Shown one piece after another: positions 32,692 to 36,425 of a stretch of 64,000 bases of DNA (within the stretch, counting starts at the first letter, position 1; each line of letters starts with the position of its first letter). The notes under the pieces were generated by a model that saw only the letters and a program-made list of their open reading frames with translations, was not told the origin of the DNA and did no database searches. The stretch is taken from assembly GCA_021787595.1 (NCBI GenBank), contig JAJYLQ010000014.1, forward strand, positions 1-64,000, given 5' to 3'. The DNA comes from Chloroflexota bacterium. GTDB lineage: Bacteria; Chloroflexota; Anaerolineae; Anaerolineales; Villigracilaceae. The translations under genes and the position numbers were made by a program.

Positions 32692-32806
32692 ACTCTGCTC
32701 CTGTAACAAGTTTACCAAAAGCGGAGCCGAAACGAATCACCCACTGGTCATAGCGTGGCGCGTTTGGTGCCCAGTTTGCTCCCGGTTTTTTCCGTTAATC
32801 AGTTGA

Positions 32807-32885
32807 TGTTACGCACTGCCCGAAGGTTTGGGGCAGAAGCGAGTCTGAATTACTGGAGCCTTCGGGGCGTTTTGCGTAATGTGAG
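32807..32885. repeat. Imperfect ~80-bp inverted repeat
   Basis: Left arm GTTACGCACTGCCCGAAGG and right arm CCTTCGGGGCGTTTTGCGTAAT are near-complementary, with AT-containing ends. It lies between the HD gene and the aspS leader promoter and looks like a miniature palindromic element. Confidence 0.6.
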
Positions 32886-32912
32886 CTAATCAGATCTCGG
32901 GCCCGAACTTTA

Positions 32913-32921
32913 TGCTATAAT
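32913..32921 (+). promoter_or_regulatory. Extended -10 promoter of the aspS-asnS leader
   Basis: TGCTATAAT (TG at 32913, TATAAT at 32916-32921) is a full extended -10 element. No -35 consensus is visible. Transcription should start about 32928, one or two bases from the leader ORF start. Confidence 0.7.
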
Positions 32922-32929
32922 ACCGCACC

Positions 32930-33016
32930 ATGAACGGCAACATCAGCTTCGCCAATAATAATAACAACGACAATGACGACAACCCTCGTGTCGTTGGGCG
33001 AAGCTTTGCAGGTTGA
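32930..33016 (+). CDS. Asn/Asp-rich attenuator leader peptide of the aspS-asnS operon
   Basis: A 28-codon ORF, ATG to TGA. Residues 9-18 are NNNNNDNDDN, ten consecutive Asn/Asp codons (32954-32983); in all, 9 Asn and 3 Asp of 28. It lies just upstream of aspS and asnS. Its last codons contain GGGCGA (32996-33001), which can pair with TCGCCC (33039-33044) and so block the terminator that follows. A ribosome waiting at the Asn/Asp run would leave GGGCGA free; a ribosome at the stop codon would cover it. It starts next to the expected transcription start, so it is probably translated leaderless. The regulatory role is inference from sequence geometry. Confidence 0.75.
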   Translation: MNGNISFANNNNNDNDDNPRVVGRSFAG

Positions 33017-33038
33017 TAAAGAACCCAGGTCAAACCAA

Positions 33039-33084
33039 TCGCCCGACGTAGCGCCAGGACGCCACGAAGGGCGATTTATTTTGT
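33039..33084 (+). terminator. Attenuator terminator upstream of aspS
   Basis: TCGCCC (33039-33044) pairs with GGGCGA (33069-33074). Inner pairs are CGT/ACG and GCG/CGC around a CCAGGA loop, and the stem is followed by TTTATTTTGT. The left arm is also complementary to 32996-33001 in the leader ORF, giving a competing antiterminator (6 bp, extendable by GTC/GAC across a small bulge). Confidence 0.75.
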
Positions 33085-33092
33085 CAACATCA

Positions 33093-33204
33093 TGTCATTG
33101 CGAGTGGCGCCTCGCGCCACGAAGCAATCTCGATTTAGGGATTGCTTCGTGGCTCGGTCTCGATACGGACTTCGTCCTACTCGACCAGCGCCCTCGCAAT
33201 GACA
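33093..33204. mobile_element. 112-bp MITE-like element with perfect 12-bp terminal inverted repeats
   Basis: It starts TGTCATTGCGAG (33093-33104) and ends CTCGCAATGACA (33193-33204). Inside are a GTGGCGC/GCGCCAC hairpin and a GAAGCAATC/GATTGCTTC pair. It separates the attenuator from aspS. Related units lie at 11177-11412, and parts lie inside helicase 2. Confidence 0.8.
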
Positions 33205-33227
33205 GACAGTAAAGTTGGAGGCGCATT

Positions 33228-34997
33228 ATGTACAAAACTCATACGTGCGGAGAATTACGGGCATCGCACGCCGGCCAGAAAGTGACGCTGGCCGGCTGGG
33301 TGCATCGCCGCCGCGATCACGGCGGAGTGGTCTTCCTCGATTTACGCGACCGCTACGGAATCATTCAAATCACGATCAATCCCAATTTATCGAAAGAAAC
33401 ATTGAACGTCGTCGCTGACATCCGCTTTGAATGGGTGCTGCAAATCGTCGGCACGGTTCAGAAGCGGCCGGTGGGAATGGAAAACCCGAACATGCCGACC
33501 GGCGAAATCGAAGTGATTGCCAGCGGGATCAACGTTCTCAACCCCGCGAAAACTTTGCCTTTCATGGTCAACAACGGCGAGATGAACGAAGCCGATGAAA
33601 ACACGCGCCTCAAATATCGCTATCTCGATCTGCGCCGCGAACGGATGCGGGAAAACATGATCCTGCGTCATCGTGTGATCAAGTTCATGCGCGATTACCT
33701 CGATAAGCAAAACTTCATCGAAATCGAAACGCCGATTCTCTTCAAAGCCACGCCCGAAGGCGCGCGCGACTATCTCGTTCCGTCACGCCTCTATCCCGGT
33801 CAATTCTATGCCCTGCCCCAATCGCCTCAGCAATTGAAGCAGTTGTTGATGGTTGCGGGCATGGATCGCTATTTCCAAATCGCACGCTGTTTCCGCGATG
33901 AAGACCAGCGCGGCGACCGCCAGCCCGAATTCACACAGCTCGACCTCGAGATGTCGTTCGTTCAGCGCGACGATGTGCTGGCAATGGTCGAAGGGCTTTA
34001 TACCGCGATGATCCCCGCGGTCACGCCGCATAAAAGATTACTTGCATCACCGTGGCCCAAGTTGACCTATAAAGATGCTGTTGAGAAATATGGATCGGAC
34101 AAACCGGACTTGCGCTTTGGAATGCAACTCGTTGACGTAAGCGACATTTTTGCAAAGAGTGACTTCCGCGTCTTTCAATCTGCCCTCGAAGCGGGCGGCG
34201 TGATCAAGTGCCTCGTCGCGTCTGGTTGCGCGGACACATCCCGCCGCGAAGTGGACGAGTTGACCGAGATGGCAAAGTCGTTCGGAGCGAAAGGCTTGGC
34301 CACTTTAGCGGTGACCGCTGAAGGTCCGAAAGGAACGGCGGCGAAATTCCTTAAGGTTGAAGAAATCGAAGCAGCCAAATCCAAAGTCGGCGCGAAAGAA
34401 GGCGACTTGATTTTGTTCGCCGCAGATCAACGCGCGGTCGTCAATAAAGTCCTCGGCGGATTGCGGCTCGTCTTTCGCGATAAACTTGATCTGGCTGATA
34501 AAGATGTGATGGCCTTTGCGTGGGTCGTGGACTTCCCGATGTTCGAATGGAACGAGGAAGAAAAGAAATGGGACGCCGCGCATCATCCGTTCACGATGCC
34601 AAAGATGGAAGACCTGCCAAAGTTCGAGACGAACCCCGGCGAGATTCAGTCGGACGCGTACGATATGGTGTGCAACGGTTACGAGATGGCATCCGGTTCG
34701 ATCCGCATCCATCGCCGCGATATTCAGTTTAAAATATTTCAATTACTTGGTTTGAAAGACGAAGAAATCCAGTTGAAATTTGGTCACATGCTCGAAGCGT
34801 TCGAATACGGCGCGCCGCCACATGGCGGGATGGCTCCGGGCATTGACCGGCTTGTGATGCTGCTGGCCGACGAACCGAACATCCGCGAAGTGATTGCCTT
34901 CCCGAAAAATTCCGGTGCGCGCGATGTGATGGCTGATGCGCCCTCATCTGTTGAACCAAAACAGTTGAAGGAATTGCATATCAAAATCTCAGATTGA
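33228..34997 (+). CDS. aspS: Aspartyl-tRNA synthetase (bacterial type)
   Basis: A 589-residue class II synthetase. It has an N-terminal OB fold ([31 protein letters not shown]), motif 1, motif 2 ([23 protein letters not shown], about 217-240) and the bacterial GAD insertion (about 285-420). Motif 3 lies near the C-terminus ([21 protein letters not shown]). It charges tRNA-Asp. Its length with the GAD domain marks the bacterial D-type enzyme. GGAGG is 6 bases before the ATG. It is first in the aspS-asnS pair behind the Asn/Asp leader. Since asnS is also present, a strictly Asp-specific form is likely, but this is not certain. Confidence 0.97.
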
Positions 34998-35081: not shown

Positions 35082-36425
35082 ATGCCAGAAATCATTCGTG
35101 TTGATGAAATCTCAAAATATGACGGTCAGGAAGTGACTGTCCAGGGCTGGGTCTATAACCGCACCGACAAGGGCAAATTGGTTTTCCTGTTGGTGCGCGA
35201 TGGAACCGGCTTTGTCCAATGCGTGGCATTCAAAGGCGATCTCGATGAAAAGATTTTTGATCAATTGATGCGATTGCCGCAAGAGTCAGCAGTAATTATT
35301 ACCGGCCCGGTTCGCGCCGATAAACGCGCGCCCGGCGTCCCCGGCGGATATGAGATCGGCGTGAAGAAGATCGAGATCGTGCAAACCGCCGACGCGGATT
35401 ATCCGATGTCGCTCAAAGATCACGGCGTGGACTTTGCCCTCGACAATCGCCACTTGTGGATTCGGATGCCGAGTCAGTGGGCGATCCTGCGCGTCCGCTC
35501 GACAGTGATGGCGGCGACGCGCGAATGGCTCGATAACAATGGCTTCATCGCCATGGACACACCGATCCTGACTCCTGCTGCAGCCGAAGGCACGACAACT
35601 TTATTTGAGACCGAATATTTCGATGAAGGCAAAGCGTATCTCGCGCAAACCGGACAGCTTTACAACGAAGCGAATATCTTTGCGTTTGGAAAAGTCTATT
35701 GCTTCGGCCCAACCTTCCGCGCCGAAAAATCAAAGACGCGCCGGCATCTGACTGAGTTCTGGATGCTCGAACCCGAAATGGCTTTTTGTGATTTAGACGG
35801 TTTGATGGAAATCGAAGAGCAGATGGTCACGCACATCGTCCAGCGCGTGCTTCGAGATCGAAAGCCCGAACTCCTTTCCTTGGGCCGCGATCTGACCAAA
35901 CTTGAAAACATCAAAGCGCCGTTCCCGCGCATTTCATACGATGATGCGGCAAAGATGATCGGCGAATTGCGGGAAAAAGAAACCGATCCAGAAAAAAAAG
36001 AGTTACTTAAATTCGACTGGGGAATTGATTTTGGCGCGCCGCACGAAACCGCGATCACGAATCAATTCGATAAGCCGGTGTTCTGTTATGGTTATCCCAC
36101 CGCGGTTAAAGCCTTTTACATGGAGCCGTGGCCGGGCCGGCCGGAAGTGTGCAAATCCGTGGATTTACTTGCGCCGGAAGGTTACGGCGAAATCTGCGGC
36201 GGCTCGGAGCGCATCAGCGACCATGATTTGTTGTTGAAACGCATTCACGAACAAAAACTTCCCGAGTCCGCATTCAAGTGGTATCTCGAATTGCGGAAAT
36301 ACGGTTCGGTTCCGCATTCGGGATTTGGCATGGGCGTGGAACGCGTCACGTCATGGATCTGCGGAATCGAACACATCCGCGAGGCAATCGCATTCCCAAG
36401 AACAATCAAACGCGTGTATCCGTAA
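35082..36425 (+). CDS. asnS: Asparaginyl-tRNA synthetase
   Basis: A 447-residue class IIb synthetase. The N-terminal OB fold (GQEVTVQGWVYNRTDKGKLVFLLVRDGTG) binds the anticodon. AQTGQLYNEANIFAFGKVYCFGPTFRAEKSKTRRHLTEFWMLEPEMAF (about 187-232) includes motif 2 with the asparaginyl-type AEKSKTRRHL. Motif 3 is GFGMGVERVTSWICGIEHIREAIAFPR. It charges tRNA-Asn directly. CGGAGG lies 10 bases before the ATG. It is co-transcribed with aspS, so both should share the leader control at 32930. A hairpin with a U-run follows. Confidence 0.95.
   Translation: MPEIIRVDEISKYDGQEVTVQGWVYNRTDKGKLVFLLVRDGTGFVQCVAFKGDLDEKIFDQLMRLPQESAVIITGPVRADKRAPGVPGGYEIGVKKIEIVQTADADYPMSLKDHGVDFALDNRHLWIRMPSQWAILRVRSTVMAATREWLDNNGFIAMDTPILTPAAAEGTTTLFETEYFDEGKAYLAQTGQLYNEANIFAFGKVYCFGPTFRAEKSKTRRHLTEFWMLEPEMAFCDLDGLMEIEEQMVTHIVQRVLRDRKPELLSLGRDLTKLENIKAPFPRISYDDAAKMIGELREKETDPEKKELLKFDWGIDFGAPHETAITNQFDKPVFCYGYPTAVKAFYMEPWPGRPEVCKSVDLLAPEGYGEICGGSERISDHDLLLKRIHEQKLPESAFKWYLELRKYGSVPHSGFGMGVERVTSWICGIEHIREAIAFPRTIKRVYP

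Follow-up and report, generated by a model that had tools for sequence, protein, structure and literature searches.

The window, by which we mean the whole 64,000-nucleotide stretch of DNA analysed here, belongs to a genome of 4.08 Mb that is 99.6% complete (G000), and carries aspS and asnS behind a short leader (Table 1). The nearest named relatives of its aspS are metagenome-assembled Chloroflexi and Anaerolineae. This gene begins 143 nt beyond the leader switch, and neither a promoter-like nor a terminator-like pattern was found between aspS and asnS in the window. The initial annotation had described an extended -10 element, a 28-codon open reading frame (ORF) and a run of ten Asn/Asp codons within it, and all three lie exactly where it had placed them. 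Likewise present are the motif GGGCGA at 32996-33001, TCGCCC at 33039-33044 and a second GGGCGA at 33069-33074, after which TTTATTTTGT extends to 33084.

Table 1. Features of the leader and the genes behind it (positions in the window)
Feature	Position	Strand	Basis
Extended -10 promoter element, TGCTATAAT	32913-32921	+	Sequence
Predicted leader peptide ORF, 28 codons, MNGNISFANNNNNDNDDNPRVVGRSFAG	32930-33016 (ATG 32930, TGA 33014-33016)	+	Sequence
Strand 1, AGCTTCGCC; pairs with strand 2 (anti-antiterminator)	32945-32953	+	Predicted fold
Putative sensor, ten consecutive Asn/Asp codons (codons 9-18)	32954-32983	+	Sequence
Strand 2, CGTTGGGCGA; 5' side of the antiterminator, within the last ORF codons	32992-33001	+	Alignment, fold
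Strand 3, TCGCCCGACG; common to antiterminator and terminator	33039-33048	+	Alignment
Predicted intrinsic terminator, stem ATCGCCC..GGGCGAT (33038-33075) and T-rich tail	33038-33084	+	Alignment, 104 distinct sequences
aspS, bacterial-type aspartate--tRNA ligase; first gene downstream of the leader	33228-34997	+	NF001750 and TIGR00459 above cut-off
asnS, asparagine--tRNA ligase; second gene	35082-36425	+	NF003037 and TIGR00457 above cut-off

The end of the leader ORF (CGTTGGGCGAAGCT..) has two possible partners, AGCTTCGCC (strand 1) on its upstream side and TCGCCCGACG (strand 3) on its downstream side; strand 3 in turn has an alternative partner in the second GGGCGA (strand 4), with which it would form the terminator. 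The upstream option, a 1:2 hairpin of AGCTTCGCC (32945-32953) and GGCGAAGCT (32997-33005), had been overlooked in the initial annotation. Its antiterminator of GGGCGA and TCGCCC stands as a pairing but not in its length of 6 bp, since CGTTGGGCGA and TCGCCCGACG pair over 10 bp. The predicted energies are -17.5 kcal/mol for this antiterminator, -20.6 kcal/mol for the terminator hairpin and -15.4 kcal/mol for the 1:2 duplex. As a whole, the leader (32931-33084) folds at -54.5 kcal/mol, compared with a mean of -35.6 for shuffled sequences (z -5.4; 0 of 200 shuffles as good). A simple terminator scan of the plus strand, with a loop limit of 8 bases, did not report the leader terminator. Between the terminator and aspS lies a partly palindromic dispersed repeat (GTCATTGCGAG..GAAGCAATCTC, approximately 33088-33204) with dozens of matches in the genome. 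In the repeat search, which yielded at least 47 matches to the whole query and in which 40 of 161 first-look candidates were scored, the leader part matched only itself and all other matches started at query position 202 or beyond; the repeat was rejected as the element that is conserved.

Leaders of this kind recur among relatives of the window's genome. All five genus-mates have one, and among the first 26 upstream regions read the leader was absent from 15, including Anaerolinea and Thermoflexus relatives, and present in 11. Nine of the 11 were recognized by an Asn/Asp filter; the other two, L054 and L101, have diluted runs and were recognized by their switch. The covariance model R1, whose start lies no earlier than the end of the codon run, matches 134 of 400 genomes of the order at E<=0.01, G000 included; 96 of them fall in the window's family, itself counted, and 38 in other families. 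From 100 fetched stretches, which represent part of the 134 genomes and do not include the aspS leader of G108, 135 matches were reduced to 103 sites by keeping the better strand at each place. At 95 of these sites aspS follows 10-202 nt downstream, at five asnA follows, and the three weak sites with neither gene (L154, L174 and L185) were excluded from alignments, codon counts and family folding. The broader model R2 matches 45 of 396 genomes of the class and 28 of 400 of the phylum, samples with few genomes from other leader-bearing families. Its strong matches are restricted to the window's family, and 21 genomes outside the family have a weak one. Neither aspS nor asnS was found in the stretches fetched around 18 of these 21 matches and around a second place in G067 (G411, G688 and G758 were excluded, some stretches end shortly past the site, and asnA was not sought).

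Within the 64-kb window the ten-codon run is the only one of ten RAY codons, and none arose in 100 dinucleotide shuffles. At 106 leader sites the run contains 867 AAY or GAY (RAY) codons and 44 AAR or GAR (RAR) codons against a pyrimidine background of about 52%, in a frame picked blind to third bases (L173 had no anchor for this count). Third bases in the run vary and are nearly always pyrimidines. Codon changes between 61 pairs of near relatives, which were taken from the 68 leaders with a definable segment and are not independent of each other, comprise 96 synonymous changes, 95 Asn-Asp exchanges and 26 others. The run is thin in some leaders (L231, L165, L169 and L179 among them), and L171 has no ATG leader. 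Relative to the run, the GGG of the pairing element is in frame 0 at 70 of the 106 sites, in frame 1 at 32 and in frame 2 at 4, so that its translation varies among genomes (VGRSFAG, YRWAKPC or other peptides). As judged from these comparisons, the run is conserved at the amino-acid level and the pairing element at the RNA level. The leader thus offers what is found in ribosome-mediated attenuators, a short ORF with a codon run that matches the amino acids of the downstream genes.

In a wide alignment of 104 distinct sequences, 90.8% of the antiterminator cells are paired, compared with a mean of 89.8 for shuffles and at most 44.0 for slid structures; for the terminator the values are 98.7%, 96.3 and at most 44.7. 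Compensatory cells number 27 in the antiterminator (shuffled mean 3.2, 0 of 500 as high; slid structures at most 10) and 17 in the terminator, including changes from U-A to A-U and C-G (shuffled mean 0.9, 0 of 500; slid structures at most 10), with shuffle statistics that for both helices take no account of relatedness. Neither the paired fraction nor the compensatory count of either helix is attained by any shuffled or slid structure. The most variable antiterminator pair is U-A in 39, U-G in 39 and C-G in 22 sequences. In further pair types the antiterminator is no better than its shuffles (312 of 500). When slid by -2, the antiterminator has five pairs with two-sided change versus four in the true structure; the terminator slid by +3 equals the true structure in such pairs (three) and shows nine pair types versus eight. 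The outermost antiterminator pair fails in 69 of the 104 sequences, and a C in L010 breaks one pair of this helix. Covariation was uninformative in a first alignment of 11 sequences because the helices hardly vary there: the antiterminator lacked two-sided change and only equalled its shuffles, and the 1:2 helix, with 77.8% of cells paired, surpassed slid controls (at most 49.4%) without surpassing its shuffles. L011, whose terminator loop is long, was excluded from alignments A2 and A4.

The predicted antiterminator and terminator are thus mutually exclusive helices with a common strand, and both display compensatory change in the wide alignment, though not in the 11 sequences alone, as is characteristic of an attenuator. 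Covariation in related upstream regions had been named in the initial annotation as the check to make, and the wide alignment provides it for both alternative stems. Homologues devoid of Asn/Asp codons or of the alternative pairing were to count against the proposal; the homologous leaders keep both.

In the window the leader ATG follows the -10 box after 8 nt, and the leader mRNA may therefore be leaderless. Across the 106 leaders, the distance from TATAA(T/A) to ATG is 7-10 nt in 50, at least 11 nt in 39 and 6 nt in one (16 unmeasured); L187, L189 and L207, for example, have 19-20 nt between the two together with a GAGG motif. Leaderless initiation is consequently likely in many lineages, including that of the window, albeit not in all. 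The -10 element is invariant in all 11 leaders of alignment A1 by construction, as the sequences were cut from that motif.

asnS is encoded in each of the 46 leader genomes tested. Its position relative to aspS differs: 14 long fetched stretches provided seven gene maps in which the two are not adjacent, six with gatC-, gatA- and gatB-like genes after aspS and one (L261) with other genes. One strand runs through to asnS in L259, L260 and L266 (in L260 asnS was placed by a separate asnS search). In L255, L256 and L257, ORFs on the opposite strand separate gatB from asnS, which may thus be outside the operon there. For L266, NCBIfam confirmed gatA, gatB and asnS; the short gene that we take to be gatC stayed below the threshold used. 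Where gatCAB-like genes follow, the predicted leader stands ahead of genes for the direct route as well as for amidation. Control of both synthetases by one leader, as put forward in the initial annotation, is accordingly likely to include asnS in the window but is not general, given the intervening genes or opposite-strand ORFs in several genera. Two genomes (G256 with L149, G232 with L150) possess, a few kb upstream of their aspS-asnS copy, a second aspS that is 68-69% identical to that of the window and has an Asn/Asp leader of its own; this extra gene is followed by a gatA-like one in L149. 6S RNA (RF00013) lies near aspS-asnS in three of four related stretches searched (L187, 3774-3949; L146, 1444-1620, minus strand; L168, 55-231, minus strand) and has no match at gathering score in the window.

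The gene for asparagine synthetase A, asnA, occurs in 9 of 400 genomes of the order. The switch precedes it in all five asnA-bearing members of the window's family and was seen in none of the four genomes outside; three of the five genes were called by TIGR00669, those at L146 and L153 by homology. Each of the five asnA leaders has between 5 and 9 Asn within its best ten codons and is devoid of Asp there (one Asp stands immediately behind the run in L147, and one near the start in L152), whereas Asp occurs at least once in 97 of the 101 other leaders, which as a group have means of 5.1 Asn and 2.5 Asp. The Asp contrast holds within each of the genomes G272, G282, G329 and G352, for which both leaders were read. 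G329 (L146) displays the two in tandem, in the order Asn-only leader, asnA, leader with Asn, Asp and His codons, aspS, asnS. Since the five asnA genomes represent three genera, they are not five independent events. In the sequences compared, codon composition tracks the gene, with Asn and Asp before aspS and almost only Asn before asnA, and this contrast suggests an amino-acid gauge that can be re-tuned. We lean, with some reserve, towards a codon-programmable attenuator module: one switch that was duplicated in one family, before aspS-asnS (with gatCAB in some cases) and before asnA, whose specificity is reset by the run alone and which is often leaderless. Paired asnA and aspS leaders in one genome amount to a natural codon-swap experiment, which opens the specificity to direct test.

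To simulate translation of the leader, we assumed a ribosome footprint that leaves RNA free from P site +16. In the window, at equilibrium, the antiterminator has a P of 0.87-0.999 only while one of codons 12-16, which belong to the run, occupies the A site; with arm 4 still unmade, this helix forms for A-site positions from codon 3 to codon 18. The terminator has a P of 1.0 with the ribosome at the stop codon and without a ribosome. Across the family 105 of 106 leaders could be folded. Before arm 4, a stall in the run gives a mean antiterminator P of at least 0.5 in 102 of these, and a ribosome at the stop codon yields the terminator in all 105, a result that is partly given by construction, since strand 2 is hidden under the footprint assumed. 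Once arm 4 exists, equilibrium favours the antiterminator for any stall in only 52 of 105 leaders, which means that the switch must in many cases act kinetically. In ribosome-free folds the terminator is favoured in 88 and not in 17. With the assumed footprint, and for 52 of 105 leaders also at equilibrium, the geometry is that of an attenuator, in which a stalled ribosome frees strand 2 and one at the stop codon covers it. The logic of paused versus terminating ribosomes in the initial annotation is thereby borne out in predicted folds, for the window as well as for the family.

We consider it very probable that the leader is a trp-like, ribosome-mediated transcription attenuator through which the charging of tRNA-Asn and tRNA-Asp determines the expression of aspS-asnS. 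This proposal is founded on the anatomy of the leader, its conservation, the compensatory changes in antiterminator and terminator, the gene association, the codon composition and the predicted folds; transcript start, translation, stalling, termination and the physiological response are what we infer from them. Transcription would begin a few bases ahead of the leader ATG and give a nearly leaderless mRNA, on which a ribosome would load. With both tRNAs charged, it would reach the stop codon and cover strand 2 (32992-33001), strand 3 would pair with strand 4, and transcription would end near 33084. When Asn-tRNA or Asp-tRNA is scarce, the ribosome would stall in the ten-codon run and cover strand 1, leaving strand 2 free to pair with strand 3 before strand 4 is made; no terminator would then form, and aspS-asnS would be transcribed. 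If the leader is not translated, the 1:2 and 3:4 helices would form and transcription would end.

Other readings of the same features deserve consideration. The GAY codons might merely be tolerated, being one first-base change away from AAY, so that only the charging of tRNA-Asn matters. Asn indeed exceeds Asp in the non-asnA leaders (5.1 versus 2.5), 4 of 101 have no Asp in their best ten codons, and Asn-Asp exchanges are common (95 of 217 codon changes); sensing of Asp and tolerance of Asp are not separated by the present comparisons. The asnA leaders, however, employ the same switch, and none of the five has Asp in its best ten codons compared with 97 of 101 others, a contrast repeated within G272, G282, G329 and G352, the five asnA genomes being from three genera. 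We thus regard sensing of Asn alone as unlikely. The ORF could also encode a functional microprotein, with an ordinary terminator or another kind of attenuator as the RNA structure, and a VGRSxAG-like C-terminal peptide is kept in many genomes. Yet the same nucleotides are read as VGRSFAG, YRWAKPC or RRAVRCGLP depending on the genome, the peptide is kept mainly as its Asn/Asp run, and the RNA helices covary. Owing to the change of reading frame in the pairing element among genomes, we rejected the microprotein, which seems barely credible.

A T-box, which binds tRNA, or a metabolite riboswitch might stand in place of a translated leader. T-boxes are common in these genomes: G000 has eight matches at E<=0.001 (best 90.2 bits, none over the 93-bit cut-off), each of the five genus-mates has one over the cut-off, as do 12 of the 16 genomes searched in all, and matches per genome in G000 and 15 relatives number 4-8, which makes it probable that synthetase control in the clade mixes T-boxes with leader-peptide attenuation. 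At the leader itself the picture is different. No Rfam family reaches its gathering score in the window, the interval 32700-33400 gives a single sub-threshold match, to a snoRNA family, and none of the G000 T-box matches is on the leader's contig. Furthermore, neither a T-box nor a metabolite riboswitch needs an in-frame codon run. RF00230 (T-box) and other Rfam families were rejected for the leader, and we hold this class of explanation to be extremely improbable. Finally, the structures may control downstream translation or mRNA stability instead of transcription termination. Leaderless polycysteine upstream ORFs (uORFs) of Mycobacterium smegmatis regulate downstream translation, according to PMC9031893, and aspS begins just 10 nt past the switch in some genomes. 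Against this, nearly all leaders have a T-rich tail behind the stem, and the 143 nt between switch and aspS in the window place the ribosome site of that gene outside the stem; such control in place of attenuation of transcription is quite unlikely.

One R2 match outside the window's family (L273) precedes proS (NF006625) in another family of the class. In the 330 bases before the ProRS start, four regions (L289 from G573, L290, L291 and L292) contain short ORFs with a Pro-x-Pro motif (YPIPSGPV, HPVPSNPV and LPVPAGPR by script, HIPVPTGS by eye), followed by a GC-rich, terminator-like hairpin; the other 8 of 12 upstream regions, some partial or misplaced, did not show this arrangement. A Pro-codon leader acting as a Pro attenuator before proS is possible, and hints that leaders of this type have been overlooked in the phylum.

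If the attenuator model is correct, ribosome-mediated attenuation gains Asn and Asp as signals and aspS, asnS, gatCAB and asnA as targets, and the covariance model can be used for annotation. Literature on an Asn/Asp leader peptide for aspS, asnS or asnA was not found in a search that had subscription journals mostly outside its scope, nor was a ribosome-mediated attenuator in the phylum Chloroflexota found in the literature searched. PMC2965389 contains none of the terms sought for Asn, Asp or Chloroflexi.

The trp and his leaders are the classical ribosome-mediated attenuators of amino-acid operons. In common with classical systems, the present leader has an ORF with regulatory codons, alternative antiterminator and terminator, a T-rich tail and a synthetase target; it differs in its Asn/Asp codons, in its targets aspS, asnS, gatCAB-like genes and asnA, in its start, which is probably near-leaderless in many cases, and in its Chloroflexota host. 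The leaders of thr (Thr, Ile) and ilv (Ile, Leu, Val) likewise sense more than one aminoacyl-tRNA, whereas in the present switch the codon set differs between its gene targets. We know of no described leader that pairs Asn with Asp. Attenuators before trpS and leuS of Streptomyces are reported, and pheST is mentioned, in PMC1262725. For Shewanella, aspS appears among structured-leader candidates of the tRNA synthetase leader class (PMC2659441, in part); a predicted structured leader before aspS is shared, but the text on that candidate names no Asn/Asp leader peptide. The leaderless polycysteine attenuators of mycobacteria (Canestrari 2020, as cited in PMC9031893) resemble the present leader in having a short ORF with a run of a single kind of codon as sensor, and a leaderless start, established there, is likely for many of the present leaders; they differ in regulating downstream translation, with no terminator switch mentioned in the passage on them. 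According to PMC2494555, two Chloroflexi (Dehalococcoides) have T-boxes for an Ile ligase and trp genes, no Asn ligase is reported for the Chloroflexi then known, and in Clostridium acetobutylicum one of three aspS genes bears a T-box. Titles by Saad (2012, 2013) cited in PMC4206432 add T-boxes of this species for tRNA-dependent amidation and the two-codon T-box. As far as these excerpts and titles tell, the Clostridium T-boxes share with the present leader the genes for Asp/Asn charging, the tRNA-charging signal and, by title, two tRNAs per leader; they differ in binding tRNA directly, without translation, whereas the Chloroflexota leader would read charging through a translating ribosome.
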